Shown: in pieces, positions 1-17,791 of the stretch
Layout: the number at the start of each line of letters is the position of its first letter
Position numbering within the stretch: position 1 is the first letter of the stretch
Origin: a virus
DNA length: 20,815 nucleotides
Strand: one strand, 5' to 3'
IMG/VR virus record: IMGVR_UViG_3300042691_029886
Coordinates: 1-20,815 of that record
The notes under the pieces: model-generated
The model's input: only the letters and a program-made list of their open reading frames with translations
Databases searched by the model: none
Told to the model about the DNA's origin: nothing
Translations under genes and position numbers: made by a program

Positions 1-2
1 TG

Positions 3-1331
3 AGACGTCTTGCTGCTCAGGAAAGAAGAGCAGGTAAGTCTGATAGAACGGATGCTAAGGCAGCAAGTAAATATGCAGAGTCAGAAAAAAAATCTGCAGA
101 AAGAGAAGATAAGAAATCTAGAGGTAAGCACATTCATGGAATGGCAGATTCTGTTGAAGTAGATGGAGATCTTGTCGATGAAGGAATGACTATGAAGGAC
201 TTCAAGGCAAATCGTAAAAAAGCAAAAGCATCTGCTGCTCGTGCTGATGCTGTGAAGAGAGGTCATGTAGGTAAGGAATGGTATAACAGTGGTAGAAGAT
301 ATTCTCCAGATGAAGCAAAGAGAAGTCGTGCAAACATGGATGATGAAGAAAGACGTACTAGACATCGTAGTGCTGTAGATCCTGATAATGAGGATGATAA
401 TAACTACTCTGCAGATAAGACGAAGAATCCTAAGAAGCTTCGTAAGCAAAAAGCAATGGGAGAGTCTGCAGTTCCTGGTAAACCAGCAGAAAAACTTGGT
501 GCTGTAACTGCTATTCCAAAATCAGAACAGGAAGCTGCTAGAGAAAGACTCCTTGCAAAGGCAAAGGCTATGAGAGAAAAAAATATGAAGAAGGAAGAAG
601 CAGAATTAGAAGAGAAGAGAGGTCTTTGGGATAATATTCATGCTAAGAGAAAGCGTGGCGAAAGACCTGCTAAACCAGGAGAAAAGGGATATCCTAAGAC
701 TCTTAATGTAGAAGAAGTAAGAGCACTTGTAGAAGGTATCAAACAGGCTAGAAAGAATGTTGGTGCTTCTAAGTGCTGGACTGGTAAGAAACTTGGCAAT
801 CCTTCAACCAAAATGAAGGGTGGTAAAGAAGTACCTAACTGTGTTCCTGAAGCACTTGTTTATGGTGGTGAGAAAAAGGAACCAGAAGATAAGAGAATGA
901 CAGTGACTGCTGCTGATAAAAAAGCAAATACCAAAGCATGGCAGAAGTACAAAGCAGGCAATCCAGCATACAAAGCTGCTGCACATGTAGGTGAAGAAAC
1001 TGTTGTAGAAAGAGCACTTGATACTGCAGAAACAGGTGAGAAGGAAAGACTTGTAAAAGGAATGAAGAAGTCTGCTGCAGACTTTAAGAAGAGATATGGC
1101 GAAAGAGCAAAGTCAGTGATGTATGCTACTGCCACTAAGATGGCAAAGAAGCATATGGATACTTCTAAATCAGATCGTAGATACGCTGTGGAGGAAACTT
1201 CAATGGAAGAGAATGCTGATCTTGAGAACAGAAAGAAGGGACCAAGAAAGCCATCACAAATGGCTAAGAGAGAAAAACTCAATAAACTTATTGATGAAAT
1301 AAGAACAAAGAGAGAAGGTGAATCTAAGTAA
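3..1331 (+). CDS. Lys/Glu/Ala-rich virion-type cyanophage protein (5' truncated)
   Basis: The reading frame is open from base 3, so the gene starts upstream of the window; the first internal ATG (141) is not a convincing start. The visible 442 residues are extremely rich in Lys, Arg, Glu and Ala and look largely helical or disordered, with no membrane segment. Three stretches resemble motifs that recur in large structural proteins of T4-like cyanophages: NPKKLRKQKAMGE near base 427, a Cys pair ending in VPNCVPE (bases 774-851), and ERAKSVMYATATKMAKK near 1100-1150. The family likeness is from memory; the role in the particle is unknown. The stop codon overlaps the next frame by 14 bases. Virion-type is an inference from composition and motifs, not a demonstrated location. 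Confidence 0.7.
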   Translation, partial: RRLAAQERRAGKSDRTDAKAASKYAESEKKSAEREDKKSRGKHIHGMADSVEVDGDLVDEGMTMKDFKANRKKAKASAARADAVKRGHVGKEWYNSGRRYSPDEAKRSRANMDDEERRTRHRSAVDPDNEDDNNYSADKTKNPKKLRKQKAMGESAVPGKPAEKLGAVTAIPKSEQEAARERLLAKAKAMREKNMKKEEAELEEKRGLWDNIHAKRKRGERPAKPGEKGYPKTLNVEEVRALVEGIKQARKNVGASKCWTGKKLGNPSTKMKGGKEVPNCVPEALVYGGEKKEPEDKRMTVTAADKKANTKAWQKYKAGNPAYKAAAHVGEETVVERALDTAETGEKERLVKGMKKSAADFKKRYGERAKSVMYATATKMAKKHMDTSKSDRRYAVEETSMEENADLENRKKGPRKPSQMAKREKLNKLIDEIRTKREGESK

Positions 1332-1734
1332 GAAGCAGAAGCAATTAATCTTTGTTAGTATTATTACTTCTGGATTAATTACTTCACTTTCTCAATGTAC
1401 TAAAATATCCGAAGATAGTCTGTGGGATCTCTTTGATGAAATTCAAAGAAAGTTCTTCCCACAGACTATTTTTAATGAATTGATAATTAAAGATCCTGAG
1501 AAATTAGACAGAAGAATTCAAAGGGATGTGGATCATGCCATCAGGGATTATGAGAGATGGGAATCCTCATTGCCTCCTAGGATGACCAACAAGACCATCC
1601 TGGAGGGTCTAAAGTCCCCAAGGTTCTCTGACACCCAGAGACTAGTGGTGAAGGATGCAATTTATTATGAGTGTCCTGGAGGTGTTATGGGCATCAGAGG
1701 AGTGTGGGTTGACAAGGATCCAGAATGTACCTAG
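1318..1734 (+). CDS. Hypothetical protein with hydrophobic N-terminus
   Basis: 138 residues, probably from a GTG start that overlaps the end of the preceding gene by 14 bases; no in-frame ATG occurs before the region encoding the conserved-looking core. A purine-rich AGAGAAG lies directly against the start, so the start is uncertain. Residues 10-24 are hydrophobic and are followed by Cys27, which could be a signal or lipoprotein-type leader, but LSQC is not a good lipobox. The rest is charged and soluble-looking, with a helical DSLWDLFDEIQRKFFPQ stretch and a C-terminal part containing two Cys. I do not recognise the family. The position immediately after a virion-type gene suggests late expression. 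Confidence 0.6.
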   Translation: MNLSKKQKQLIFVSIITSGLITSLSQCTKISEDSLWDLFDEIQRKFFPQTIFNELIIKDPEKLDRRIQRDVDHAIRDYERWESSLPPRMTNKTILEGLKSPRFSDTQRLVVKDAIYYECPGGVMGIRGVWVDKDPECT

Positions 1735-1756
1735 AATCACTCTGTTGGGTTTGAAG

Positions 1757-1764
1757 GATAAATA
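1757..1764 (+). promoter_or_regulatory. Possible T4-type late promoter box
   Basis: GATAAATA lies in the 53-base gap before the SegE-like gene, 24 bases upstream of its ATG. It differs from the T4 late consensus TATAAATA only at the first base. Position and match support the call; there is no expression evidence. Confidence 0.5.
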
Positions 1765-1787
1765 AGGCTTAAATTATTAAAGGCTTT

Positions 1788-2246
1788 ATGACCTATGAGA
1801 ACCCTTGGATATATCAGGGAGAAACTTTTGATTCACCTGACATATTGGATTACTATGGTTTTGTTTATCTTATTGAATGCAATGAAACTTCTAGGAGCTA
1901 CCTGGGAAGAAAGTATTTTTGGTCTTTTAGAAAACAAAAGGGTAAGTCTAGAAAAACTAAACAGGAAAGTGACTGGAAAAAATATTATGGATCCTGTCCA
2001 GAATTAAAAGAAGATGTTAAGAAGTATGGTAAGAGCAAGTTCAAAAGAACCATACTATCATTACATAAAACCATAGGTAAAACTAATTACGAAGAGACTA
2101 GGCAACTATTCTTAAATAATGTCTTAACTGAATCACTTGACAATGGAGATCCCAAGTACTATAATAGCAACATCTTGGGAAGATACTTCAGAAAAGATTA
2201 TTATGAACAAAAAACAAATGCAGATGATGTGCCAAAGCAGAGTTGA
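1788..2246 (+). CDS. SegE-like GIY-YIG endonuclease-fold protein
   Basis: 152 residues. The N-terminal part carries a GIY-YIG-like signature: GFVYLIEC (about residues 24-31) followed by SYLGRKYFWS (about 37-46). A basic stretch, a KYYGS motif with LKEDVKKYGK, and a helix with a Glu pair (NYEETRQLF) follow in the order seen in SegE-type phage proteins. GIY-YIG enzymes cut DNA, and T4 Seg proteins act as free-standing homing endonucleases, but family members also occur as fixed conserved genes in cyanophages. The catalytic Arg and Glu seem to be present. An AAGG lies four bases before the ATG and a possible late box lies upstream. The last 44 bases overlap the next frame. Family call fairly sure; nuclease activity and mobility are inferred. 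Confidence 0.72.
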   Translation: MTYENPWIYQGETFDSPDILDYYGFVYLIECNETSRSYLGRKYFWSFRKQKGKSRKTKQESDWKKYYGSCPELKEDVKKYGKSKFKRTILSLHKTIGKTNYEETRQLFLNNVLTESLDNGDPKYYNSNILGRYFRKDYYEQKTNADDVPKQS

Positions 2247-2391
2247 TAGTGTCTTTGACAGAATTCATGAACTATGTGATTCTGGAAGAGTTGATGATGC
2301 TTCTGCTTTGTATGCAGAAATTAAAGATTGGGTTGTTCAGAAATATGATATTGAGGTTCTATCTTTAGATTATATTAATGATGTAATTTAA
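2203..2391 (+). CDS. Small hypothetical protein (62 aa)
   Basis: The start at ATG 2203 gives 62 residues and overlaps the SegE-like gene by 44 bases. Downstream in-frame ATGs (2218, 2224, 2227) could also be used, as none has a good ribosome binding site; the frame is open further upstream to 2137, but that would lie deeper inside the neighbouring gene. The product is acidic, contains one predicted helix pair around RVDSVFDRIHELCDSGRVDD, and has no membrane segment or recognisable catalytic motif. It ends just before a CTAAATA late box. Coding status is supported by the continuous frame beyond the upstream stop; the function is unknown. Confidence 0.5.
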   Translation: MNKKQMQMMCQSRVDSVFDRIHELCDSGRVDDASALYAEIKDWVVQKYDIEVLSLDYINDVI

Positions 2392-2395
2392 AAAC

Positions 2396-2402
2396 CTAAA
2401 TA
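2396..2402 (+). promoter_or_regulatory. Possible late promoter box (CTAAATA)
   Basis: CTAAATA lies five bases after the preceding stop and 37 bases before the next ATG (2439). The same heptamer occurs at 19403 and 19590, also in gaps before genes, which supports a shared role. A short imperfect hairpin (CTCAT/ATGAG arms, about 2407-2429) follows it. Confidence 0.5.
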
Positions 2403-2438
2403 ATCACTCATAATGATTTTTAGAATGAGTCTTTGATT

Positions 2439-2522
2439 ATGAAATTAGAGCCCAGGAAGGTGCCCTTCGAGAGAGGTGGTGTACCCCCCTTCTATTGGGA
2501 TGTAGAGTTCAACAAATTTTAA
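2439..2522 (+). CDS. Very small ORF (27 aa) coupled to the RlpA-like gene
   Basis: ATG 2439 opens a 27-codon frame that is basic at its N-terminus and contains a PPFYWD stretch. Its stop overlaps the start of the next gene as TAATG (2520-2524), an arrangement typical of translational coupling. There is no clear ribosome binding site, but it is the first ATG in this frame after the CTAAATA box. It may be a real small protein or a leader that helps translation of the RlpA-like gene. Function unknown. Confidence 0.4.
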   Translation: MKLEPRKVPFERGGVPPFYWDVEFNKF

Positions 2523-2884
2523 TGCTTTTTAAAACAATTTCAATTATTGCTTTTGGTCTTGTAGGTCTGGCACCCTTAACAGCAAAAGCAGCAAGCGGAT
2601 GTTCCCTTGCATCACATTATGGAGTAGGTGATGGATATCACGGACAAACTACTGCCAATGGCGAAAGATACAATGCATATGGGTTGTCAACTGCCCATAA
2701 ATTCCTTCCCTTTGGAACTAGACTAAGAGTTACAAACCAGTCAAATGGTCGTTCTGTTATTGTAAGAGTTAATGATAGAGGACCCTTTGTTGCTGGTAGG
2801 TCACTTGACTTGTCCTATGGAGCATTTGGTAAAATTGCATCTCCTGGACAAGGGGTTGCCAATGTATGCTATACTAGGGTATAA
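2522..2884 (+). CDS. Secreted RlpA-like double-psi beta-barrel protein
   Basis: From ATG 2522 the product is 120 residues. The first 23 form a classical signal peptide (Lys4, hydrophobic core, AKA cleavage site). The rest is almost entirely one double-psi beta-barrel domain with the RlpA pattern: SHYGVGDGYHGQTTANGERY, then TAHKFLPFGTRLRVTN, then RVNDRGPF and GRSLDLSYGAF. The Asp in VNDRGPF matches the residue essential in RlpA lytic transglycosylases, which cut peptidoglycan strands lacking stem peptides. Unlike bacterial RlpA there is no lipobox and no SPOR domain. In a phage it could loosen the wall before lysis or change septal peptidoglycan; both are inference. An upstream TTG (2495) is possible but would spoil the signal peptide. 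Confidence 0.8.
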   Translation: MLFKTISIIAFGLVGLAPLTAKAASGCSLASHYGVGDGYHGQTTANGERYNAYGLSTAHKFLPFGTRLRVTNQSNGRSVIVRVNDRGPFVAGRSLDLSYGAFGKIASPGQGVANVCYTRV

Positions 2885-2893
2885 TATACATAC

Positions 2894-2922
2894 TTGACAA
2901 CTGAATAGTAGGGAGTTATAAT
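2894..2922 (+). promoter_or_regulatory. Consensus sigma70-type promoter for tRNA-Gly
   Basis: TTGACA (2894-2899), a 17-base spacer and TATAAT (2917-2922): both hexamers match the consensus exactly. The expected start near 2929 lies just before tRNA-Gly (2937). This would allow early transcription by the unmodified host polymerase. The -10 box is the exact loop of a perfect inverted repeat, listed separately. Confidence 0.85.
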
Positions 2923-2929
2923 ACTCCCT
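2910..2929. repeat. Perfect inverted repeat centred on the -10 box
   Basis: Arms AGGGAGT (2910-2916) and ACTCCCT (2923-2929) pair perfectly over 7 bp; the six-base loop is the -10 hexamer TATAAT itself. There is no T-run behind it, so it does not look like a terminator. It may be an operator-like dyad or an upstream terminator remnant merged with a promoter. Confidence 0.75.
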
Positions 2930-2936
2930 TACATGT

Positions 2937-3008
2937 GCGAGATTAGTTCAGTGGTAGAACGCTATCCTTCCAAGTTAGATGTCAGGGGTTCGAATCCCCT
3001 ATCTCGCT
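2937..3008 (+). tRNA. tRNA-Gly (anticodon TCC)
   Basis: A full 72-base cloverleaf can be folded by eye: acceptor GCGAGAT with ATCTCGC, D-stem GTTC/GAAC with an AGTGGTA loop, anticodon loop CTTCCAA with anticodon TCC at 2969-2971, and T-arm AGGGG/CCCCT around TTCGAAT. The CCA end is not encoded. The anticodon stem CTATC/GTTAG has one T-T mismatch at the fourth pair. It would read GGA and GGG; GGA is common in the AT-rich genes of this window. It is served by its own consensus promoter. Confidence 0.92.
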
Positions 3009-3010
3009 TC

Positions 3011-3026
3011 CCCAGAAACATCTGGG
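3011..3026 (+). terminator. Short hairpin after tRNA-Gly
   Basis: CCCAGA and TCTGGG form a 6-bp stem with loop AACA two bases after the tRNA. No run of T follows; AATTATAAATA follows instead. It may be a weak terminator or a tRNA 3' processing signal. Confidence 0.4.
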
Positions 3027-3029
3027 AAT

Positions 3030-3037
3030 TATAAATA
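3030..3037 (+). promoter_or_regulatory. T4-type late promoter of the porin gene
   Basis: TATAAATA, an exact match to the T4 late promoter box, 31 bases upstream of the porin ATG. The gap holds no sigma70-type pair that I can see, so the porin appears to be late-expressed. Confidence 0.75.
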
Positions 3038-3068
3038 AACACTGTAGTTGTAATTCTTAACAAACTAT

Positions 3069-4538
3069 ATGAAATTTTTCAAACAACTGATGCTTGCACC
3101 TGTTGCTCTGGGGATTGTTACTCCTTCTGCTTTTGCTGCAGACCTTAATATGAATGGAGTATCCCAATATACATCCAATGAGCAGGTTACAAGCGTCACT
3201 CAATTCTCTGATGTTCAACCTACTGATTGGGCATATCAAGCACTCTCACAACTTGTAGAGCGTTATGGTTGTGTTGCTGGTTATCCCAATGGAACCTTTG
3301 GTGGTGGTCGTGCAATGACTCGTTATGAGGCAGCAGCACTTCTGAATGCTTGTCTGGATCGTGTGACTGAAGTTACTGATGAACTCAAGCGTCTTACCAA
3401 TGAGTTTGCACAGGAACTTGCAGTGCTTCGTGGTCGTGTAGATAAACTGGAAGCACAAGTTACTACTCTTGAAGCACAACAGTTCTCCACTACTACCAAA
3501 CTGCGTGGTGAAGCAAACTTTGTTCTTGGTGGTGTTGATAATTACCAAAGTAAAGCAGGTGACATTACTCACACTGCATTCAACTATGATCTTCGTCTGA
3601 ACCTGGATACTTCATTCACTGGTAAGGACCTTCTGCGTACTCGTCTGCGTTCTTCTAACTTTAGTAGCAATCCTTTTGGATCTAGTTCTTCTATCTTCAA
3701 ACTGGATAAAGCAGACAACACCCAAGGAGATATGGGCGATGCTGTAGTTATTGATCGTCTGTACTATCAGTTCCCTGCTTTTAATAACAAAGCAACTATT
3801 ACTGCTGGTGCTCTTGTTCGTAACACTGAAATTGCCTGGATTCCTTCAGCATATGAATCCAAGATCCTTGACTTCTTCCAAGTAGCAGGTGCTCCTGGTG
3901 TTTATAACAAGGCAGTTGGTTCTGGTTTTGGTATCCAGTACGGTAAGAAAGGTCTTGTTGCTGGTGTAAACTATGTTGCACAGAATGGTGCTGATAGTTC
4001 TACTGGTGAGTTTGATAAGTCTGGTGCTCTGAATACTCTGGCACAGATTGGTTATCGTGGTGATAACTGGGGTGCTGCTTTTGGTTATCGTTATGGTACT
4101 GAAGGCACTCGTGTTCGTACCTATAATGGTCTGAATGGTGCATCTGGTTCTCTGGTTCCTGGTCAAACTTCTAATGGTTATGCCATTAATGCTTACTGGC
4201 AACCCACTCAATCTGGTTGGATTCCTTCCATCTCTGCAGGTTATGGTTGGAACACTGTAAGTGGTACTCAAAGTGCTGCTACCAACAGTCAATCTTGGAT
4301 GGCTGGTCTGACTTGGAACGATGTGTTTGTTGATGGTAACTCTGCTGGTGTTGCTGTTGGTCAGGCTCCTACTGGTGAAGATCTTGAGAAGTCCACTCTT
4401 CTTGAAATCTTCTACAAGTACCAAGTGTCTGATAATATCAGTATCACTCCTGCTATCATCTATGGTAGTGACAACCAACGCCTGGTTGGTAACTCCTCTA
4501 ACTGGGGTGGTGTAATTCAGACTACATTCAAGTTCTGA
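3069..4538 (+). CDS. Cyanobacterial-type outer-membrane porin with SLH domain (Som/OprB family)
   Basis: 489 residues, within the usual range of cyanobacterial Som porins. Residues 1-23 are a signal peptide ending SAFA. An SLH domain follows at about 45-105 (FSDVQPTDWAYQAL, YGCVAGYPNGTF, MTRYEAAALLNACLD). Next comes a short coiled coil at about 105-140 (DELKRLTNEF, LRGRVDKLEAQVTTLEAQ), then a beta-rich barrel ending in FKF, the terminal aromatic expected of outer-membrane proteins. In the host family the SLH domain anchors the barrel to the wall and the pore passes small solutes. Next to pstS, a role in phosphate or nutrient entry is plausible but inferred. No Shine-Dalgarno is visible; a late box is upstream and a strong terminator downstream. 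Arginine codons are all CGT/CGC, unlike the glycan operon, which suggests host origin or very high expression. Confidence 0.85.
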   Translation: MKFFKQLMLAPVALGIVTPSAFAADLNMNGVSQYTSNEQVTSVTQFSDVQPTDWAYQALSQLVERYGCVAGYPNGTFGGGRAMTRYEAAALLNACLDRVTEVTDELKRLTNEFAQELAVLRGRVDKLEAQVTTLEAQQFSTTTKLRGEANFVLGGVDNYQSKAGDITHTAFNYDLRLNLDTSFTGKDLLRTRLRSSNFSSNPFGSSSSIFKLDKADNTQGDMGDAVVIDRLYYQFPAFNNKATITAGALVRNTEIAWIPSAYESKILDFFQVAGAPGVYNKAVGSGFGIQYGKKGLVAGVNYVAQNGADSSTGEFDKSGALNTLAQIGYRGDNWGAAFGYRYGTEGTRVRTYNGLNGASGSLVPGQTSNGYAINAYWQPTQSGWIPSISAGYGWNTVSGTQSAATNSQSWMAGLTWNDVFVDGNSAGVAVGQAPTGEDLEKSTLLEIFYKYQVSDNISITPAIIYGSDNQRLVGNSSNWGGVIQTTFKF

Positions 4539-4560
4539 TAATCTACTCATAAGTTGAGTT

Positions 4561-4590
4561 AGACCACTCCTTTCTGGGGTGGTCTTTTTT
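4561..4590 (+). terminator. Rho-independent terminator of the porin gene
   Basis: AGACCACTCC and GGGGTGGTCT form a 10-bp stem with one G-T wobble, loop TTTCT, followed by TTTTT up to 4590. It lies 22 bases after the porin stop and isolates it from pstS. Confidence 0.9.
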
Positions 4591-4606
4591 GTTAGGTAAT
4601 GGAAAC

Positions 4607-4634
4607 CTTAACCAAATCTTAGTGGACTTTAAGA
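4607..4634 (+). promoter_or_regulatory. Possible degenerate Pho box upstream of pstS
   Basis: CTTAACCA (4607-4614) is one base from a cyanobacterial Pho-box repeat unit (CTTAACCT). A weaker CTTAGTGG follows at 4618, exactly 11 bases on, then CTTTAAGA at 4627, whose TTAA lies at 4629, two 11-base periods after the first unit's start. TATCAT (4646-4651) could be the -10. Host PhoB control of cyanophage pstS is established for other cyanophages; here only the first unit is a good match. Confidence 0.45.
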
Positions 4635-4686
4635 TTGTCTTCCAGTATCATTATCTACGAAGTCAATTTACTTCTAAAAAACTTTT

Positions 4687-5658
4687 ATGAAATTCAAAAA
4701 CTTTATTGCTGTTGGTCTGGTTGTTGCTCCTGTTGCTCCTGTTGCTGCACTTGCTGGACCTGCTTTGAATGGTGCAGGCGCCACCTTCCCTGCACCCATT
4801 TATCAACGATGGTTCCAAGACTATGCACGAACTTCTGGGAGTAGGGTTAATTATCAGTCCGTTGGTTCTGGTGCTGGTGTTCGTCAATTCATTGCGGGCA
4901 CAGTTGACTTCGGAGCAAGTGACGAACCAATCTCCGCAGCAGATGCCTCCAAAGTGAAGCGTGGTGTTGTTCAGATTCCTATGGTGGGTGGAACGATTGC
5001 TGTGGCTTACAATAAGCCTGGATGTAATCTGAGACTTACTCAAAAGCAAACTGTAGATATTTTTGCTGGTCGTATTAGAGATTGGAAAGCACTTGGATGT
5101 GCTGCTGGTCCCATTACTCCTGTGTATCGTTCTGATGGTTCTGGAACCACTTATGCATTCACTAACTCTCTTGATGCCTTTGGTGGTTGGGGTCCAGGTG
5201 TAGGTAAGGCAGTTAAATGGCCTACTGGTGTTGGTGCAAAAGGTAATGAAGGTGTTTCTGGACGAATTCGCCAGACTCCTGGTTCTATCGGTTATGTGAA
5301 TACTGGATTTGTAAAAGCAAATCGTATTCAAGCAGCAGCAATTCAAAACCGAGCAGGTAAGTTTGTTCTTCCTACTGCTGCATCTGGTGCTGCTGCTCTG
5401 AATAACATCAAACTGGACGCAAACCTTGCTGGTGAAAATGCAAATCCTGCTGGTGCAACTGCATATCCTATTTCTACTTTGACTTGGGTTCTTGCATATC
5501 GTACTGGCAATGGTGCTAAGGCAGATGATATTCGTGCTGCTCTAAACTATGCTCTGAGTTCTAAAGCACAATCTATTGCTGATGATCTTGGATATGTTCC
5601 TCTGTCTGGTTCTATCCTGAACCGTGCAAGGATTGCTGTTGGTCGCATTGGGCAATAA
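4687..5658 (+). CDS. pstS: Periplasmic phosphate-binding protein PstS
   Basis: 323 residues, normal for PstS. A signal peptide occupies about residues 1-23 (hydrophobic VAPVAPVAALA). The mature part starts with GPALNGAGATFPAPIYQRW, the hallmark N-terminal phosphate-loop region. GSGAGVRQF, FGASDEPI and SDGSGTTYAF follow, which are the other phosphate-contact segments of the family. PstS binds phosphate in the periplasm and hands it to the PstCAB ABC transporter; no pstC, pstA or pstB is here, so it would work with the host transporter. pstS is a known auxiliary metabolic gene of marine cyanophages. Arginine codons are mixed (CGT, CGA, AGA, AGG), between the porin and the glycan genes. No good ribosome binding site is visible. 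The gene follows the porin after a terminator and a possible Pho box. Confidence 0.95.
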   Translation: MKFKNFIAVGLVVAPVAPVAALAGPALNGAGATFPAPIYQRWFQDYARTSGSRVNYQSVGSGAGVRQFIAGTVDFGASDEPISAADASKVKRGVVQIPMVGGTIAVAYNKPGCNLRLTQKQTVDIFAGRIRDWKALGCAAGPITPVYRSDGSGTTYAFTNSLDAFGGWGPGVGKAVKWPTGVGAKGNEGVSGRIRQTPGSIGYVNTGFVKANRIQAAAIQNRAGKFVLPTAASGAAALNNIKLDANLAGENANPAGATAYPISTLTWVLAYRTGNGAKADDIRAALNYALSSKAQSIADDLGYVPLSGSILNRARIAVGRIGQ

Positions 5659-5663
5659 ATTAG

Positions 5664-5671
5664 TATAAATA
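5664..5671 (+). promoter_or_regulatory. T4-type late promoter box before the CAT tRNA
   Basis: TATAAATA exact match, six bases after the pstS stop and 22 bases before the tRNA. A short GC-rich hairpin (GGGGGC/GCCTCC, 5674-5689, loop ACCT) follows between it and the tRNA. It would serve the tRNA and the zinc-ribbon gene. Confidence 0.6.
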
Positions 5672-5693
5672 TTGGGGGCACCTGCCTCCTTAC

Positions 5694-5764
5694 CGTGGGT
5701 GAGTGTAAAGGTAGCACAGAAGTCTCATAAGCTTCAGGAGAGGGTTCAATTCCCTCACCCGCCA
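5694..5764 (+). tRNA. tRNA-Met or tRNA-Ile2 (anticodon CAT), atypical
   Basis: A cloverleaf can be drawn: D-stem GTGT/GCAC, anticodon stem GAAGT/GCTTC with loop CTCATAA (anticodon CAT, 5726-5728), T-arm GAGGG/CCCTC around TTCAATT. The acceptor CGTGGGT with ACCCGCC has six pairs, one a wobble, and a C-C mismatch at the first pair; position 8 is G instead of the near-invariant U. The anticodon stem lacks the three G-C pairs of initiator tRNA, so this is an elongator Met or a lysidine-type Ile tRNA, or a decaying gene. Sequence alone does not tell Met from Ile2. Confidence 0.7.
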
Positions 5765-5782
5765 TTATTTGAGGTACATACA

Positions 5783-6034
5783 ATGATAAAAATAAGATGC
5801 AAGAATTGTAACATAGAATTAATATCACATCCTACTAAATCTAAATGCTGTGGTTGTGATAATTTAACCACAGTTAAAGGTGAAACTATTACTGCTATTG
5901 ACTTGACAAAGGTAGAGTTAATCAGTAACATGGTAAAGAAGGAATCAAAAAATGTTCTTTCAAAGGAAGATATTGCTTGGCAAGAAGCAAGAAAACATCG
6001 TAAAATTAGAAAACTGGAGTTTGATATTAAATGA
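5783..6034 (+). CDS. Small zinc-ribbon protein (83 aa)
   Basis: Starts at ATG 5783 with GAGG eight bases upstream; the same frame is open further upstream but would run through the tRNA. Residues 6-24 contain CKNC, a 12-residue spacer and CCGC, a likely zinc ribbon or knuckle. The C-terminal half is charged, with helical KEDIAWQEARKHRKIRKLEF. It resembles a conserved small protein of T4-like cyanophages that I recall only as hypothetical. A zinc-bound nucleic-acid or protein adaptor is the likely type; the target is unknown. The last four bases overlap the next small ORF (ATGA). Confidence 0.72.
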   Translation: MIKIRCKNCNIELISHPTKSKCCGCDNLTTVKGETITAIDLTKVELISNMVKKESKNVLSKEDIAWQEARKHRKIRKLEFDIK

Positions 6035-6186
6035 CTTGGGAAACCCCAAAACTTTCAAAGGGTGATGTAGAACTACTCACTATTGCATTAGATGAATATC
6101 TGTATGTTTCAAATTTAGAAATACCAGATATTCCAAAAATGGAAAAACTATTGCATAGACTGGAAGATCATTTGGACAAGTTTTAA
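6031..6186 (+). CDS. Small acidic hypothetical protein (51 aa)
   Basis: ATG 6031 overlaps the zinc-ribbon stop by four bases (ATGA), so translation is probably coupled. The 51 residues are acidic and look helical, with KGDVELLTIALDEYL and a C-terminal MEKLLHRLEDHLDKF amphipathic helix. No motif is recognised. It is supported by the overlap and by coding-like composition. It ends 11 bases before a long inverted repeat. Confidence 0.55.
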   Translation: MTWETPKLSKGDVELLTIALDEYLYVSNLEIPDIPKMEKLLHRLEDHLDKF

Positions 6187-6197
6187 AATCAACACAT

Positions 6198-6250
6198 AAA
6201 TTTGTATCTAAAACTACTATCTGTAAATAGTAAATCTAAGATACAAATTT
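6198..6250. repeat. 12-bp perfect inverted repeat with nested hairpin before a start codon
   Basis: AAATTTGTATCT (6198-6209) and AGATACAAATTT (6239-6250) pair perfectly over 12 bp. The 29-base loop contains a second stem, TACTAT/ATAGTA (6215-6220, 6227-6232). The right arm ends one base before ATG 6252, so in RNA it would cover the ribosome binding region of that gene. No T-run typical of a terminator follows. Confidence 0.85.
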
Positions 6251-6251
6251 T

Positions 6252-6410
6252 ATGGACAATCATACTTTTAGTAATTGGTTGAAAATAAAAGAAACATTTG
6301 AAAAATCTGGTAATACAGATAACATGTTCTATAAGAGAGCATGTGCAATTGTTAAAACTGGTAAAGATCCATTAGAAAAATTTTTAAATCATGATACATT
6401 TAATCAGTAA
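6252..6410 (+). CDS. Small hypothetical protein (52 aa)
   Basis: ATG 6252 starts directly after the right arm of a 12-bp inverted repeat. The 52 residues begin MDNHTFSNWLKIKETFEKSG and contain NMFYKRACAIVKTGKDPLEKF, which I recall as similar to a family of very small conserved cyanophage proteins (FYKRA core). It looks helical and soluble, without Cys pairs or membrane segments. Function unknown. The start site may be occluded in RNA by the repeat, hinting at structure-controlled translation. Confidence 0.6.
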   Translation: MDNHTFSNWLKIKETFEKSGNTDNMFYKRACAIVKTGKDPLEKFLNHDTFNQ

Positions 6411-6414
6411 TTTA

Positions 6415-6513
6415 ATGGAAAATGATTTGTTTGTTTCTTTTCTAGCAACTCTCTTGACAATGGTTCCCATAACAGGTATCATGCTCTTAGGAAATCAATC
6501 AAACAAAGAATGA
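6415..6513 (+). CDS. Tiny single-pass membrane peptide (32 aa)
   Basis: A 32-codon frame from ATG 6415 with one hydrophobic segment (about residues 5-26: LFVSFLATLLTMVPITGIMLL) between an acidic start and a polar tail. Its stop overlaps the next gene as ATGA (6510-6513), pointing to translational coupling with the Phd-like gene. No clear ribosome binding site. It may be a real membrane peptide; the pairing with an antitoxin-like gene is noted as a finding. Confidence 0.45.
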   Translation: MENDLFVSFLATLLTMVPITGIMLLGNQSNKE

Positions 6514-6698
6514 AATCTTTTACAGTTGAGGAATTTGAAGAAAACTTCGATGAACTTTTCTCAAGAGTAGAAAATGGTGAAACATTTATCATTACAAGTG
6601 AGTCTGGAAATGTAGTAATTCTTCCTCACAAAGAAATTGAATCTATTACTGATGATGAATTAGTGAGGATTCATACTGATCACGAAGAAGGATCGTGA
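6510..6698 (+). CDS. Phd/YefM-like antitoxin-type protein, unpaired
   Basis: 62 residues. The first about 45 match the Phd/YefM fold pattern: FTVEEFEENFDELFSRVENGETFIIT, then a short loop and VVILPHKE. In toxin-antitoxin systems this fold dimerises and binds operator DNA, while the C-terminal tail neutralises the toxin. Here the tail is short and acidic and no recognisable RelE-, Doc- or YoeB-type toxin gene is adjacent: downstream are two tRNA genes, upstream a 32-residue membrane peptide with a 4-base overlap. It could block a host toxin, act as a small repressor, or be half of an unusual pair. The fold call is fairly sure; the role is open. Confidence 0.72.
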   Translation: MKSFTVEEFEENFDELFSRVENGETFIITSESGNVVILPHKEIESITDDELVRIHTDHEEGS

Positions 6699-6702
6699 TT
6701 TT
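6679..6702 (+). terminator. Terminator-like hairpin overlapping the Phd-like stop
   Basis: ATCACGA (6679-6685) and TCGTGAT (6693-6699) form a 7-bp perfect stem with loop AGAAGGA; the last stem base plus three T's make TTTT (6699-6702). The stop codon lies inside the right arm. The T-run is short, so termination may be partial. Confidence 0.5.
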
Positions 6703-6704
6703 AT

Positions 6705-6776
6705 GGGACTGTTGCTTATTGGTTAAAGCCCACTGCTTATAACGGTGTGAACAGGGTTCAATTCCCTGCAGTCCTA
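6705..6776 (+). tRNA. tRNA-Ile (anticodon TAT)
   Basis: 72-base cloverleaf: acceptor GGGACTG with CAGTCCT (G-T at the first pair), TT at positions 8-9, D-stem GCTT/AAGC, anticodon stem CACTG/CGGTG with loop CTTATAA, anticodon TAT, T-arm CAGGG/CCCTG around TTCAATT, discriminator A. It would read the Ile codon ATA directly. Most bacteria read ATA with a CAT tRNA modified by TilS, so a TAT anticodon is uncommon. ATA codons do occur in the neighbouring glycan genes. Confidence 0.85.
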
Positions 6777-6779
6777 CTT

Positions 6780-6852
6780 GCTCCTTTAGCTCTCTGGTGA
6801 AAGCACTGTCCTCATAAGACAAGAAAGGTGAGTTCGATCCTCACAAGGAGCA
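6780..6852 (+). tRNA. tRNA-Met-type (anticodon CAT)
   Basis: Three bases after tRNA-Ile. Acceptor GCTCCTT with AAGGAGC is a perfect 7-bp stem; TA at 8-9; D-arm GCTC/AAGC with a TCTGGTGA loop and one mismatch; anticodon stem of four pairs (TGTC/GACA) around CTCATAA, anticodon CAT; T-arm GTGAG/CTCAC around TTCGATC; discriminator A. No encoded CCA and no initiator-type G-C run, so an elongator Met or a TilS-dependent Ile2. A sigma70-type -35 box starts two bases after it. Confidence 0.88.
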
Positions 6853-6853
6853 C

Positions 6854-6882
6854 TTGACACAATGACTGAATATCATTAGAAT
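6854..6882 (+). promoter_or_regulatory. Sigma70-type promoter of the glycan operon
   Basis: TTGACA (6854-6859), 17-base spacer, TAGAAT (6877-6882, one mismatch from TATAAT). The predicted start near 6889 leaves only about 14 bases before the gmd ATG. Arms ATTAGAA (6875-6881) and TTCTAAT (6894-6900) form a 7-bp inverted repeat that takes in most of the -10 and ends three bases before the start codon. No late box is seen here, so the operon seems to be early. Confidence 0.75.
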
Positions 6883-6902
6883 AGTAAAAAATGTTCTAAT
6901 AT

Positions 6903-7904
6903 ATGAAAGTTGCATTAATTACTGGAATTACTGGGCAGGATGGATCCTACCTTGCAGAACTTCTTTTGGAAAAAGGATATGAAGTTCATGGAATTGTTAG
7001 AAGAGCATCCTTAATCAACACTGATAGAATTGATCACATTTATCAAAAATTACATCTTCATTATGGTGATCTTACTGATTCTACTAATCTGATTAGTGTT
7101 ATTCAGAAAGTACAACCTGATGAGATTTATAATCTTGGTGCTCAGAGTCATGTAAAAGTTTCATTTGAAGTTCCTGAGTATACTGGACAGGTTGATGCTT
7201 TAGGAACCTTGAGAGTTCTAGAAGCAGTTAGACTTCTTGGGATGGAGAAGAAAACTAAAATCTACCAAGCATCAACATCTGAACTTTATGGATTGGTTCA
7301 GGAAACTCCTCAGAAGGAAACCACACCATTTTATCCAAGGTCCCCATATGGTGTTGCAAAGATCTATGGTTATTGGATTACCAAAAACTATCGTGAATCA
7401 TATGGTCTTTATGCTTGCACTGGGATTCTTTTTAATCATGAATCACCTCGCAGGGGAGAGACATTTGTTACTAGGAAGATTACAGTAGGTCTTTCTAGAA
7501 TCTCTGTTGGTCTTCAAGATTGTCTTTATCTTGGTAACTTGAATGCAAAGAGGGATTGGGGTCATGCCAAAGACTTTGTAGAAGCAATGTGGTTAATGCT
7601 TCAGCAAGATCAACCAGATGACTTTGTGATTGCTACTGGAGTTCAGTATTCAGTCAGAGAGTTTGTAGAGGAAGCAGCACCATACTTTGGAATGAAAATT
7701 AGATGGGAAGGTGAAGGTCTAGATGAGGTTGGCATTGATGAGTATAGTGGTAATGTGATCATTAGAGTCAGTCCTAAATATTTCAGACCTGCTGAAGTAG
7801 AGACTTTATTAGGTGATGCCACTAAGGCAAAGGAAAAATTAGGTTGGGAACCTAAGATTTCATTTAAACAATTAGTTGAGGATATGTGCATTCATGGACA
7901 ATAA
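6903..7904 (+). CDS. gmd: GDP-mannose 4,6-dehydratase
   Basis: 333 residues, slightly shorter than typical bacterial Gmd. It converts GDP-D-mannose to GDP-4-keto-6-deoxy-D-mannose with bound NADP in the cytosol, the first committed step to GDP-L-fucose, GDP-colitose and related sugars. Visible features: Rossmann motif [15 protein letters not shown] (residues 8-22), VRRAS (32-36), catalytic Thr125/Glu127 in STSELYG, Tyr149 and Lys153 in [10 protein letters not shown], and the Gmd signature [16 protein letters not shown] (178-193). The residues match the Thr-Glu-Tyr-Lys set of the E. coli enzyme. It is the first gene of the operon; no manB or manC is present, so GDP-mannose must come from the host. 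Gmd genes are known in some cyanophages. Confidence 0.96.
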
Positions 7905-8460
7905 AAAAATAAATCATATTTATGATCAACCCCAATTTGGGGAAGATTGGTTTTCTTATTCAAGATTATATTCTGAGATGGTAAATAGATTTCCCTCAGG
8001 AAGTCATTTTGTTGAAATTGGATCTTGGAAAGGGAAGTCTTCTGCTTACATGGCAGTAGAAATTGCAAACTCAGGAAAGTCTATACAGTTTGATTGTATA
8101 GATCCTTGGCCAGATTGGAAACCTGAAGGTGAATATTTTGAAACTATGTGTCAAAATTTGCATGAAACTTTCTTGAATAATGTAAACCCAGTAAAAGAAT
8201 ATCTAAATCCAATAAAGTTAACTTCTATGGAAGCAGTTAAGCAATATGAAGATAACTCTTTAGATTTTGTTTTTATTGATGGTAATCATGAATATGAATA
8301 TGTCTTTGAGGATATTAATTTTTGGATAAAAAAAATAAAGAAAGGAGGTGTTTTATCTGGACATGATTACCACTATCCCCCAGTGATTAAAGCAGTTTCT
8401 GATAATGGTTTAACTGATGTTGTTGCTAGGGAGGGGTGTTGGTACTATGAAGTTAGATAG
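7894..8460 (+). CDS. Class I SAM-dependent methyltransferase
   Basis: ATG 7894 gives 188 residues and overlaps gmd by 11 bases; an in-frame ATG at 7876 would deepen the overlap. Motif I is [15 protein letters not shown] (residues 40-54), the SAM-binding loop. CIDPWPDW (68-75) is the acidic second strand, and [13 protein letters not shown] (125-137) resembles the Asp/His motif of Methyltransf_24-type enzymes. A C-terminal [14 protein letters not shown] fits the same family. Its place between gmd and the fucose synthase suggests it methylates a nucleotide sugar or a finished sugar residue, but the acceptor is not deducible from sequence. Confidence 0.8.
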
Positions 8461-9391
8461 TAAAATTTTTGTTGCTGGCCATAGAGGATTAGTTGGATCA
8501 TCTATTACTAGGAAGTTAAAAGAACTTGGTTATACTAATGTTCTTGGTTTGAGAAAATCTTTATTAGATCTCACTTCTCAAGAACAAGTAGAAGAGTTCT
8601 TTGAAACTCAAAGACCTGAGTATGTGTTTCTTGCTGCAGCTAAAGTTGGAGGAATTGGACATAACAAAGAAAACCCAGCAGATTTTATTAGAGAAAATCT
8701 TCAAATTCAAACTAATGTAATTGATGCTTCATATAGAAATGGTTGTAAGAAACTTTTGTTTTTAGGTTCTGCTTGCATCTATCCTAAACATGCACCAGTT
8801 CCAATTAAGGAAGAATACTTAATGACTGGACCCCTTGAAGAAACTAATATTGCATATTCTCTTGCAAAGATATCTGGATATTTGATGTGTAAAAAGTATA
8901 CAGAACAGTATGGATTCCCAACTGTTTCTGTTATGCCAAATAACCTCTACGGAATTAATGATAACTTTATTATTGAACAGTGTCATGTAATTCCTAGTTT
9001 CATTAACAAGTTTATTCATGCAAAAGAAAATAATCTTAATGAAGTAGTTTGCTTTGGTGATGGAACTCCAACTAGAGAATTTTTGTTCTCTGATGATCTT
9101 GCAGATGGTCTTATCTTCTTGATGAACAACTACAATGATCCAGAAATTATTAACATAGGTCCACAGAGAGAAGTAAGTATCAAAGAGTTGTCTGAACTTG
9201 TTGCTAATCTTGTTGGATATAAAGGAAATATTGTTTGGGATACTACTAAACCAAATGGAACTCCTAGAAGAGCATTGGATACTTCCAAAATGGATTCTCT
9301 TGGTTGGAAAGCAAAGACATCACTAGAGGATGGATTGAAAGTTACTATTGATTGGTTTTTACAAAATAGGGAGAATTATGTCAGAGTATAA
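8447..9391 (+). CDS. fcl: GDP-L-fucose synthase (epimerase/reductase), or ColC-like
   Basis: Start at ATG 8447 with GGGAGGGG about 11 bases upstream; it overlaps the methyltransferase by 14 bases and gives 314 residues. It epimerises C3/C5 and reduces C4 of GDP-4-keto-6-deoxymannose with NADPH. Visible: VAGHRGLVGSSI Rossmann motif (9-20), AAAKVGGIGHN (63-73), Ser108 and Cys110 in GSACIYP, Tyr137 and Lys141 in YSLAK, NLYGINDNF, and His180 in CHVIP. These match Ser107, Cys109, Tyr136, Lys140 and His179 of E. coli Fcl. Colitose synthase ColC is a relative with a similar core; since a ColD-like gene follows directly, ColC activity alone or both activities are possible. Confidence 0.88.
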   Translation: MKLDSKIFVAGHRGLVGSSITRKLKELGYTNVLGLRKSLLDLTSQEQVEEFFETQRPEYVFLAAAKVGGIGHNKENPADFIRENLQIQTNVIDASYRNGCKKLLFLGSACIYPKHAPVPIKEEYLMTGPLEETNIAYSLAKISGYLMCKKYTEQYGFPTVSVMPNNLYGINDNFIIEQCHVIPSFINKFIHAKENNLNEVVCFGDGTPTREFLFSDDLADGLIFLMNNYNDPEIINIGPQREVSIKELSELVANLVGYKGNIVWDTTKPNGTPRRALDTSKMDSLGWKAKTSLEDGLKVTIDWFLQNRENYVRV

Positions 9392-10541
9392 GTGGCCTCT
9401 TATGAAAAATACTCTCTCCTTTTTGGATAGGGTAAAACTTGCGAAGTTTGTATTATCATCAGATAAGTTTACTCAAGGTAAAAAAGTTCAAGAATTTGAA
9501 AATGCTTGGTCTGAGTGGATTGGATCTAAACACTCCCTGTTTGTAACTTCTGGCAGCACTGCAAATTTTCTGTTAGTTGCTGCTGTGATGGAAAAATATG
9601 GATTGAAACCTGGAGATAAAGTAGTTCTTCCTGCATGTACATGGGTTACAAATATCAATCCTATTTTTCAGTTAGGTCTTACTCCAATCTTCTGTGATAT
9701 CAATCTTCAAAATTACAGTTTTGATATTGATAATCTGAGGAGAATATCTGAGAAACATTCAGATATTAAAATGATATTTGTTACACATCTGTTAGGCATT
9801 CCTGCTGACAATGCTAAGTATCAAGAGATCTTTCCAGATGCAATTATTCTAGATGATGTTTGTGAATCTCATGGATGCACTTCTTATGATGGATCTAAAG
9901 TGGGTTCAAAAAGTTTGGGTGCAACTTTTAGTTTTTATTTTGGTCATCACATGTCAACCATTGAAGGTGGTATGATCTCTACTAATGATAGTGAACTGTA
10001 TGATCTGATGAAACTTAAAAGGTCTCATGGTCTTGCAAGAGTATCTGATAAATTTGAATATTATTCAAATCAAAATCCAGAAATTGAAAGATCATTCCTT
10101 TTTGTAACTGATGGATATAACTTTAGAAATACCGAACTTGCAGCAGTTCTAGGTCTTTCTCAACTTAAAAGACTTGATCAGTTTATCAAAATAAGAAGAG
10201 ATAACTATTTTAAGTTTCTTGGTGCTGTATATGAAAATAAAAATCTACATCCAGTCTATCCAAGTTTGGGTAATAGTTGTTTTTGTTTCCCATTTATTTG
10301 TAAAACAAAAGAAATCAAACAAAAACTGATTAGTCTCTTTGATAAGTATTCTATAGAATATAGACCTGTTGTTGGAGGTAATTTACTTAGACAACCATAT
10401 ATGGTAAACTACTCAGTGGAATGCCCTTCGAAGGTTTTGAATGTAGATATCCTTCACGAAAATGGGGTATACATAGGTAATAGTCAGTTTGTTTCTGATA
10501 AAGAAATCGAAATCATTAAAGAAATTATTGGAGAAATTTGA
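9378..10541 (+). CDS. ColD-like GDP-4-keto-6-deoxymannose 3-dehydratase
   Basis: ATG 9378 (GGGAG nearby) gives 387 residues and overlaps fcl by 14 bases. It has the DegT/DnrJ/EryC1 aminotransferase fold: FTQGKKVQEFE, VTSGSTANFL (56-65), LPACTWVTN (84-92) and DDVCESHG (159-166). At the position of the PLP-binding lysine the sequence reads GHHMSTIEGG (189-198), so His190 replaces lysine. That swap marks the dehydratases ColD (His188 in E. coli) and the RfbH/E1 group. With a GDP-mannose dehydratase adjacent and no obvious [2Fe-2S] cysteine cluster, ColD is the better match. It would remove the C3 hydroxyl of GDP-4-keto-6-deoxymannose, using PLP and glutamate, en route to GDP-colitose. The stop overlaps the next start (TGATG). 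Confidence 0.82.
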   Translation: MSEYKWPLMKNTLSFLDRVKLAKFVLSSDKFTQGKKVQEFENAWSEWIGSKHSLFVTSGSTANFLLVAAVMEKYGLKPGDKVVLPACTWVTNINPIFQLGLTPIFCDINLQNYSFDIDNLRRISEKHSDIKMIFVTHLLGIPADNAKYQEIFPDAIILDDVCESHGCTSYDGSKVGSKSLGATFSFYFGHHMSTIEGGMISTNDSELYDLMKLKRSHGLARVSDKFEYYSNQNPEIERSFLFVTDGYNFRNTELAAVLGLSQLKRLDQFIKIRRDNYFKFLGAVYENKNLHPVYPSLGNSCFCFPFICKTKEIKQKLISLFDKYSIEYRPVVGGNLLRQPYMVNYSVECPSKVLNVDILHENGVYIGNSQFVSDKEIEIIKEIIGEI

Positions 10542-10885
10542 TGGAAAAACTTGGTGAATTTATTGAAAACATTATTAAGGAAACAGTAGATAGAGTTCTT
10601 TTTTCTGGTGAAGAAGTTCCAGATGTAGAATACATTGCAACTGATAATCTTGGAGAAATTGTTGAGAAACTAGCGATCCTTCACATCAGAACATGGATGC
10701 TTGAAGATGCAATTCAAGAAGCAACAACAGATGAAGAGATTGCTCATTTAAAAAGAAAAATTGATATCTGTTTTAAAGTAAAAAGACCTAAGTTGGTACA
10801 AGCAATCAACATTATGATTGATGATGCAATTACAAATGAAAAAAGTCTACGAGAAGACTCTGTAAAACTTTATAAGGGGGTTTGA
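10541..10885 (+). CDS. DUF4254-like helical protein
   Basis: ATG 10541 overlaps the ColD-like stop by one base (TGATG) with GGAG eight bases upstream; 114 residues. The core at about residues 43-94 (EKLAILHIRTWMLEDAI, DEEIAHLKRKIDICFKVKRP, LVQAINIMIDDAI) matches the pattern I recall for DUF4254: an all-helical domain with a W-x2-ED motif and a KR-x-ID helix, often found in glycan gene clusters. No catalytic residues are evident. It may be an accessory or regulatory protein for glycan synthesis. The family call is tentative and the function unknown. Confidence 0.65.
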   Translation: MEKLGEFIENIIKETVDRVLFSGEEVPDVEYIATDNLGEIVEKLAILHIRTWMLEDAIQEATTDEEIAHLKRKIDICFKVKRPKLVQAINIMIDDAITNEKSLREDSVKLYKGV

Positions 10886-10898
10886 GGAATAACAGTTG

Positions 10899-11786: not shown

Positions 11787-12433
11787 AACATCCTTTAAAT
11801 AAATTTTTTGATAAAGTTATAGTTCTTACCACAACTCATGAGTCATGTAAGGACAGGATAGAGAGGTTTAAAACTAGAAGTAAAAATCTAGAATATGAAT
11901 TTTTCTATGGGACACATGCTGCAGATATGAACATTGATTTTTATAGGGAAAATGGATGTGAGCCCATAACTGATGGTCAAATATCTTGTGCAGTAAATCA
12001 TTTAAATTTATATCAATATATCATTAATAACAATATATCTAATTGTCTTATATTGGAAGATGATGCAGTTATAACAGAAGATATTCAATATATTGAAGAT
12101 TGTTTATCTAAACTTCCTTCAGATTGGAAGTTAGTTTACCTTGGGTATATAAACTATCATTATATTCATCCTAATTATTCTGATCATTTATTTAAATTTT
12201 CTTCTAAAAATTATGTTGTTTTGGATTGTACTTTTGGGTTTGCAATAACTAAAGATTTTGCTTCTAAACTATATGATGCAAATAAAACTATAAACAATAC
12301 TGCTGATGGATCTATTCAAAGATTGATTAGGGAAGATGATATTGATGTTTATGCTACAGTTCCTAAAGTAGTAGAGCATGAGGGATTGGAATCTATTCTT
12401 GCTATGGTAGATAGGGGAGACTTTAAAAGATGA
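11783..12433 (+). CDS. GT25-like glycosyltransferase (first of three)
   Basis: 216 residues, joined to the previous gene by an ATGA overlap. GT25 pattern: KVIVLTTTHESCKDRIERF (11-29) as the N-terminal donor-site strand, FFYGTHAADM, GQISCAVNHLNLYQYI (65-80) as the conserved acidic/His segment, LILEDDAVI (89-97) as the metal-binding EDD, LPSDWKLVYLGY, and a C-terminal Asp-Val-Tyr-rich end. GT25 enzymes of bacterial LPS clusters transfer galactose or glucose in a GT-A fold; the actual sugar cannot be told here. It differs clearly in sequence from the other two GT25-like genes downstream, so these are not recent duplicates. Confidence 0.83.
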   Translation: MKHPLNKFFDKVIVLTTTHESCKDRIERFKTRSKNLEYEFFYGTHAADMNIDFYRENGCEPITDGQISCAVNHLNLYQYIINNNISNCLILEDDAVITEDIQYIEDCLSKLPSDWKLVYLGYINYHYIHPNYSDHLFKFSSKNYVVLDCTFGFAITKDFASKLYDANKTINNTADGSIQRLIREDDIDVYATVPKVVEHEGLESILAMVDRGDFKR

Positions 12434-16987: not shown

Positions 16988-16988
16988 A

Positions 16989-17771: not shown

Positions 17772-17791
17772 TAAATCCTGACACAAGTAAG

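Follow-up and report, generated by a model that had tools for sequence, protein, structure and literature searches.

The question raised by positions 2894-2929 of the virus record IMGVR_UViG_3300042691_029886 is why a consensus promoter should carry its -10 hexamer in the loop of an inverted repeat. The original prediction likened such symmetry to an operator or a switch. The reading preferred here is that the dyad is, on balance, probably an RNA stem-loop close to the 5' end of a phage tRNA, with the sigma-70 early promoter of that tRNA nested inside it.

The window, which is the whole IMG/VR record of 20,815 bases, is judged from neighbouring genes, matches and motifs, and these point to a T4-like cyanophage as its source. 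It matches the Synechococcus phages S-SRM01, S-CREM1 and DSL-LC02, its genes include those for a porin, a periplasmic-binding protein, an Hli-like protein and a GDP-mannose dehydratase, and it contains T4-type late motifs, the TATAAATA-type late promoter motif of T4-type phages being described in PMC1524935. Fresh or estuarine water would be our guess at the habitat, going by the three relatives.

Anatomy of the locus

The features on either side of the promoter are as follows.

2528-2884, + strand: rlpA, RlpA-like double-psi beta-barrel lytic transglycosylase (Pfam DPBB_1, E 7e-25), its stop ending at 2884
2894-2899, + strand: -35 hexamer TTGACA, 6/6
2910-2916, + strand: left arm AGGGAGT, perfect complement of 2923-2929
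2917-2922, + strand: -10 hexamer TATAAT, 6/6, the hairpin loop
2923-2929, + strand: right arm ACTCCCT, perfect complement of 2910-2916
2937-3008, + strand: tRNA-Gly(TCC) (ARAGORN; Rfam RF00005, 70.1 bits)
3011-3026, + strand: hairpin CCCAGA-aaca-TCTGGG, no U-run, after a 2-nt gap from tRNA-Gly
3030-3037, + strand: TATAAATA, late promoter motif of T4 type, upstream of the porin gene
3069-4538, + strand: SLH/OprB porin, the downstream gene (Pfam OprB, E 3e-14; SLH, E 7e-9)

The sigma-70 promoter at 2894-2922 matches the consensus at 12/12 positions with a 17-nt spacer, confirming the perfect TTGACA 17 bases upstream of a TATAAT flanked by perfect 7-bp arms that had been reported. The arms are exact reverse complements, with 14 bases paired and the 6-base -10 unpaired; the further description as a 20-base perfect dyad holds for these arms but not for TATAAT, which is not itself palindromic, and the structure is better written 7+6+7. 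Nowhere else in the window does the 20-mer recur, and none of 100 shuffles contained it. Two 12/12 promoters were found in window positions 1-20000, the other being at 2137-2165, within an ORF (1788-2246), and probably due to chance. Chance was gauged with chimeras, each made of the left half of one promoter and the right half of a promoter belonging to a different cluster: stems of at least 7 bp centred on the -10 arose in 0.25 of 55 promoter clusters, or about 0.5% per promoter. A coincidental dyad at a perfect promoter is thus improbable yet possible, and it is comparative evidence that decides.

The tRNA-Gly(TCC) gene, which the original prediction missed, begins 7 nt past the right arm, and 2894-2929 is its promoter. 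Because the usual start lies 6-7 nt past the -10, which here is the outer edge of the right arm, the tRNA transcript probably begins at about 2929-2930, and the hairpin would form in read-through RNA only. Folding of 2905-2936 as RNA gave -12.1 kcal/mol. The stem is followed by TTACATG and not by a U-run, and a terminator scan of window positions 1-20000 did not include the 2910-2929 hairpin among its predictions. A known structured RNA was considered for the dyad and set aside, the Rfam matches in the window at gathering thresholds being four tRNAs only. A host origin of the element was likewise rejected, the sole match of the 18-mer GGGAGTTATAATACTCCC in genome_contigs lying in a Sphingobacteriaceae MAG.

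The dyad has counterparts elsewhere in the window, where each tRNA that is first in its run (Gly, Met and Ile) has a hairpin ending at most 7 nt upstream; a further composite precedes a protein gene.

5674-5689, + strand: hairpin GGGGGC-acct-GCCTCC with one G-T pair, ending 4 nt short of tRNA-Met (Rfam bound 5694)
6678-6700, + strand: hairpin GATCACGA-agaagga-TCGTGATT, outer pair G-T, with a 4-nt gap to tRNA-Ile(TAT)
17805-17830, + strand: second composite, 10-bp stem AGAGTGCCCT/AGGGCACTCT

The tRNA-Met and tRNA-Ile hairpins each contain one G-T pair. For tRNA-Met the automatic search chose a weaker register, 5673-5692, and a late motif, TATAAATA, lies just 5' of the hairpin at 5664. The tRNA-Ile(TAT) hairpin overlaps the 3' end of a Phd/YefM-like antitoxin ORF (6510-6698), which scored 28.8 bits, slightly under the Pfam cut-off of 29.8. 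In the second composite it is the -35 that is enclosed: the loop and the last base of the left arm hold TTGACA (17814-17819), and the -10 (17837-17842) is followed by a short Hli-like gene at 17870-18079. A TATAAATA late motif is also present at 17792, upstream of this composite, with the Hli-like gene beyond.

Pairing in relatives and before other tRNAs

Fourteen distinct members of the tRNA-Gly family (alignment A1) were gathered by a TTGACA-to-tRNA-Gly pattern, and TTGACA is constant in 14/14 members, as is to be expected of a pattern that starts with it. Arm pairs were read by eye and not by the pair counter, because MAFFT puts the loop gap inside the arm. The innermost pair varies between T-A, G-C and A-T. 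The outermost is A-T or T-A, is open in four members (L031, L033, L211 and L230) and is G-T in L193; the loop is of 5-7 nt, and L033 has one G-T pair. In L029 the perfect stem is kept while the -10 has drifted to TATTTT. The arms had been expected not to change without compensation in relatives that keep the promoter, and in these relatives they vary in compensating pairs. A simple count of the pattern GGGAG-TATAAT-CTCCC against a non-dyad control (at least 119 versus 30) tells little on its own, since only 13 of 80 unique dyads (401 loci) have a 6/6 -35. Twelve of these 13 run into tRNA-Gly, and the thirteenth (L008) is cut short by the end of its contig. In the remaining 67 the -35 is matched less well, and many of them resemble ordinary hairpins or terminators.

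Recurrence was assessed beyond this family. ARAGORN found 1749 tRNAs in the 401 loci, redundancy included, and the distinct promoters of 11 or more matches out of 12 before tRNAs, isolates included, numbered 159 in 55 clusters. The dyads centred on -10 boxes that the original prediction proposed to seek in related phages are indeed there: stems of 6 bp or more occur in 27 of the 159 and of 7 bp or more in 20, the latter amounting to 8.2 weighted clusters against 0.25 in chimeras, with none of 300 chimera sets reaching this value. An unbiased set, from which Gly promoters and the loci fetched by the dyad pattern (L002-L015, L278-L371) were left out, retained 110 promoters in 50 clusters and gave 6.1 weighted clusters with 7 bp or more on the -10 (chimera mean 0.21, maximum 2.0), an excess of about 29-fold that was again reached by 0/300 chimera sets. 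Promoters of tRNA-Arg were sought independently through their TATAAT, with no dyad in the pattern; among the matches listed were 77 distinct promoters in 32 clusters whose -35 had 5 or more matches, 4 others without such a -35 being left out. Of these 77, 23, in 7 clusters by our own reading, had 6 bp or more (chimera mean 4.1, maximum 9). Allowing loops of up to 26 nt and a stem ending 0-14 nt from the tRNA gave 6 bp or more in 29.7 of the 104 clusters that do not come after a tRNA, against a chimera mean of 5.9 and maximum of 10.2; loci fetched by the dyad are retained in this count. The hairpin is not required, most surveyed tRNA promoters being without it. A wobble test, comparing tolerance of G-T with that of A-C as a means of telling action as RNA from action as DNA, gave 7 versus 1 by one method and 4 versus 3 by a stricter one, the outcome differing with the method.

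The arms found at different tRNA promoters are mutually unrelated (AGGGAGT, CCCACAT, TTGCCTAG, TGCCTTGTG, GGTTTCC and GGGTATT); what is conserved is complementarity and not a binding sequence. Those of the tRNA-Arg promoters include CCCACAT, CCCTCAT, CCCTTAT, TTGCCTAG, TGCCTTGTG, GGGTATT and GGTTTCC, each with its own exact complement. The unrelated arms bear directly on the idea of a DNA operator, in which a dimeric phage or host protein bound to the -10 palindrome would repress the tRNA promoter or set its timing. In favour of an operator are the perfect symmetry about the -10 and, within the tRNA-Gly family, a left core GGGAG kept in 13/14 members and a right core CTCCC in 14/14, the arms also being conserved in close contigs. 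Unrelated arms elsewhere, however, would demand a separate repressor for each tRNA; loop length and centre vary (within search bounds of 4-12 nt for the loop), similar hairpins occur at tRNAs lacking a promoter match, and there is no enrichment at non-tRNA promoters. An operator is therefore improbable, and in its sequence-specific form it is disfavoured by the lack of a conserved half-site across tRNA promoters. Of the operator or switch originally suggested, then, the meaningfulness of the symmetry is upheld by the compensating changes while the operator is not; a structural switch role may still apply.

The comparison with non-tRNA promoters comes from 11 named cyanophage records (2.19 Mb) with 308 promoters of 11 or more. 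Among the 18 isolate tRNA promoters, 6 bp or more are centred on the -10 in 3 (chimera mean 0.37, maximum 2) and 7 bp or more in 1, which is within chance (mean 0.15, maximum 1). Isolates carrying the element include S-RSM4 (at tRNA-Arg, L524), S-CREM1 (at tRNA-Met, L421) and SynMITS9220M01 (at tRNA-Gly, L412). The non-tRNA promoters show no enrichment, with 8/290 against a chimera mean of 5.2 and maximum of 12, nor do those 158 whose -10 lies outside ORFs of 90 or more amino acids (5/158; mean 3.0, maximum 10). In the same 158 the -35 lies in a hairpin in 14 cases versus 6.6 at 6 bp or more, and in 7 versus 2.0 at 7 bp or more, single chimera sets reaching 15 and 7, respectively. Thus the version with the -10 in the hairpin goes with tRNAs, and the version with the -35, exemplified in the window by 17805-17830, may go with protein genes.

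A second explanation at the DNA level is that negative supercoiling pairs the arms within strands and presents the -10 to sigma as a single-stranded loop. In the recurrent cases the loop does contain all or part of the -10, and the dyad folds as single-stranded DNA at -5.3 kcal/mol (z -2.56). Part of the -10 is nevertheless in the stem in L121, L186 and L555, most surveyed promoters have no hairpin, similar hairpins stand where no promoter is matched, and short arms with such loops make poor cruciforms. This is a very improbable account. The early hairpin promoters of phage N4, used by the virion RNA polymerase, likewise offer a promoter element in a short inverted repeat, but have a 5-7 bp stem and 3-nt loops, whereas the loop here is of 6 nt and the consensus is of host sigma-70 type.

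L025 and L018 agree at 100% in the promoter-hairpin, at 100% in the 20 bases that follow the tRNA and at 94.7% in the upstream 300 bases, while the tRNA itself is 79.2% identical; between the window and L031 the tRNA is 100% identical, the promoter-hairpin 79.5% and the 20 bases after the tRNA 68.2%. Different types of tRNA-Gly body stand between identical or near-identical flanking hairpins in L025 compared with L018 and L021, and in the window compared with L022. These comparisons suggest that tRNA bodies are moved about while their flanks stay conserved, which modular exchange would predict. The hairpins might then serve recombination of tRNA cassettes, or be an unselected mutational by-product of template switching on quasi-palindromes. 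The exchange of bodies between near-identical flanks (L025 versus L018) speaks for this pair of ideas, yet a general mutational bias leaves unexplained the restriction to tRNA promoters and the placing at 0-9 nt from the tRNA, and we regard them as quite improbable. At the place 3' of tRNA-Gly equivalent to 3011-3026, the relatives L031, L047 and L033 have other hairpin sequences.

Hairpins without promoters and the upstream transcript

The preferred reading, an RNA stem-loop beside the tRNA, draws on tRNAs with no promoter in their hairpin. Perfect hairpins of 7 bp or more with at least 4 GC pairs, ending 0-9 nt before the tRNA, were sought at first-in-run tRNAs; the test left out L002-L015, L278-L371, the Gly rows of L164-L277, tRNAs 70 nt or less after another tRNA, and promoters scoring 9. 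Among 102 clusters whose promoter scored 10 or more, 8.8 had such a hairpin (shuffles 0.08); among 301 clusters without a match of 9 or more, 7.3 had one (shuffles 0.51). Stems are also found 3' of tRNAs: in 9.9 of 625 clusters one begins 0-5 nt beyond the final tRNA of the run (block shuffles 0.39), loci fetched by the dyad being retained. Named phages were sampled by hand, the 15 phages with tRNA-Gly comprising S-SRM01 and others chosen from 60 of 98 records. A perfect stem of 6-9 bp ends 2-6 nt before tRNA-Gly in 10 of the 15 (S-SRM01, S-PM2, S-RIM32, S-RIM44, Sf-CH11, S-CAM3, SynMITS9220M01, S-RSM4, S-WAM2 and S-TIM5), and the hairpin was not found in S-CREM1, S-CRM01, B23, Syn1 and S-SCSM2R. 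Nine of the ten lack a promoter match: only SynMITS9220M01 has one (10/12), its TAGAAT divided between loop and right arm, and in S-TIM5 the loop holds TATAAT, though no -35 with at least 4 matches accompanies it. A hairpin before tRNA-Gly is thus often present without a promoter, and its occurrence at tRNAs with and without one favours a role that is independent of the promoter and hence at the RNA level.

What that role might be is suggested by the region 3' of rlpA, read in the 80 closest of 377 IMG/VR homologues with a hairpin defined as 6 or more pairs, G-T allowed. Where tRNA-Gly is in reach, all 18 loci, representing 12 distinct sequences, combine a hairpin with TTGACA and lack a U-run. 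The 60 loci without tRNA-Gly comprise 52 with a hairpin and U-run, 5 with a hairpin only and 3 with neither, and TTGACA occurs 3' of rlpA in none of them; L023 and L028, which end at contig ends after and before the hairpin, respectively, stand outside the 18 and the 60. The place 3' of rlpA is therefore mostly that of a terminator, and where tRNA-Gly is present it holds a stem-loop without a U-run together with a promoter. In six tRNA-less loci (L037, L038, L040, L042, L086 and L087) the TATAAATA late motif lies directly 3' of the U-run of the post-rlpA terminator; of the 106 T-run terminators that the isolates and the window contain, 6 have a late motif at a like offset.

These loci invite the view that the element is a degenerate or weak intrinsic terminator, whose hairpin halts or pauses upstream transcription and so acts as an insulator with a nested promoter, the tRNA being expressed only from that promoter. 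The post-rlpA terminators share its place and have similar arms (GAGGAG..CTCCTC, GGGGAGT..ACTCCCC), and in S-CRM01 (L438, 17104-17126) a terminator-like hairpin, GACTCCTC-TAGAATT-GAGGAGTC, followed by T6 and then by an ATG, is a full terminator with a U-run whose loop is the -10 (TAGAAT) of a full -35/-10 promoter. PeSL composites of T4-like phages, to be considered below, are promoter-terminator units according to PMC4503421. The present element differs from the post-rlpA terminators in having no U-run, a loop that is the -10, and a TTGACA. Its -12.1 kcal/mol hairpin runs into TTACATG, and a canonical intrinsic terminator was rejected, the GC-rich stem being followed by no T run here or in any of the 18 tRNA-bearing relatives. 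A weak terminator is, all told, unlikely, though the least unlikely of the alternatives.

If the dyad is instead an RNA stem-loop, read-through transcripts from rlpA would contain the whole of it, RNase P cutting at the 5' end of the tRNA would produce an rlpA mRNA ending in the hairpin, and the hairpin would cap that mRNA against 3' exonucleases, replacing the U-run terminator that most tRNA-less relatives have. The tRNA's own transcript, starting at the outer edge of the right arm, could not form the hairpin and would have a leader of about 7 nt. The promoter would come to lie within the hairpin, we propose, because both need the same 25 or so nt before the tRNA. Action as RNA, the RNase P end, protection of the mRNA and the transcription start are all points that we infer from sequence. 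In mitochondria, where tRNAs punctuate transcripts, the mRNA upstream of a tRNA is released by RNase P cleavage, as is proposed here; the difference is that in the phage the released end would be capped by a hairpin, and that the tRNA has a promoter of its own. A structured leader beside the cleavage site might also hinder RNase P rather than serve it.

This reading predicts that hairpins should favour an upstream mRNA over an upstream tRNA. In raw numbers they do (26/108 versus 1/49), but by cluster the preference is not significant (11/45 versus 1/10, p 0.43; unbiased set, 8/40 versus 1/9, p 1.0). Judged from stop-to-promoter distances, the stop codon of the upstream ORF apparently lies inside the -35 (TGA of TTGACA) in L164, L170, L177, L179, L186 and L524.

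Known composites and tandem tRNA spacers

The known kind that appears closest by analogy is that of the PeSLs, which are said to be promoter-early stem-loops of T4-like myoviruses and whose stem-loops reportedly sit nearer the -35. The likeness lies in a compact intergenic composite that unites a sigma-70-type early promoter and a stem-loop in a T4-like phage; neighbouring genes may also have been exchanged between copies, tRNA bodies differing between near-identical flanks. The sequence provides both a predicted strong, sigma-70-like early promoter (12/12, spacer 17) and, in the same short cassette, a stem-loop (7-bp perfect stem, -12.1 kcal/mol). The differences are that the -10 is in the loop, that the hairpin is close to a tRNA, that arm sequences diverge freely with complementarity kept, and that the stem-loop lacks the U-run of a terminator, both in the window element and in its 18 tRNA-bearing relatives. 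For this last reason we place it outside the PeSLs, among variants of the promoter/stem-loop composite; the composite at 17805-17830, with its -35 in the hairpin, resembles the PeSL layout. PMC1524935 mentions that in T4-like phages early promoters lie 5' of tRNA genes. Potential stem-loops and one host-like early promoter, and not the -10-in-loop arrangement, are described for cyanophage S-PM2 in PMC4503421, and the main text of the S-CREM1 paper (PMC9964418) does not use the words promoter, hairpin, terminator or stem-loop. No description of a -10 in a hairpin abutting a tRNA was recognised in the literature searched, most subscription papers lying outside that search.

We suggest, tentatively and with something short of even confidence, that the element represents a hitherto undescribed class of cyanophage tRNA unit, in which a hairpin conserved in structure only and lying near the tRNA houses the sigma-70 -10, or in tandem arrays the -35 pairs with the start region. 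One element of 25-35 nt would then drive the tRNA as its promoter and at the same time cap the 3' end of the preceding transcript or insulate it, and presence of the hairpin would separate read-through from early RNAs. Promoter sequence and predicted RNA structure are here encoded in the same few bases, and in some families promoter hexamers drift in step with their pairing partners. If true, this would explain how compact phage genomes house intergenic tRNAs without losing the 3' end of the upstream message; the hairpin would be a structural mark by which early tRNA promoters could be recognised in metagenomic cyanophages, and the suggestion predicts concretely which transcripts carry the hairpin.

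Promoters directly after another tRNA follow a different layout, in which the -35 arm pairs with bases at and after the -10 (GACAATCA..TGATTGTC). Pairing of this type, of 6 bp or more, occurs in 48 of 62 promoters after tRNAs versus 10 of 231 elsewhere, loci fetched by the dyad being retained. The wide-loop class centred in the spacer is not enriched by cluster, though dominant after tRNAs, and is largely one family. The base that follows TTGxCAAT covaries with base 4 of the -10 in 47 cases compared: T:A in 26, C:G in 16, T:G in 3, and C:A and G:G in 1 each (Fisher 1.5e-8 on the four main cells, kinship ignored). In tandem tRNA arrays (e.g. L034, L071, L098, L103 and L148) promoter hexamers pair with each other's flanks and drift jointly, and in single cases the -35 itself has changed together with its partner, as in TTGCCA..TTGG (L098), TTGACT..AGTC (L071) and TTGACC..GGTC (L503).
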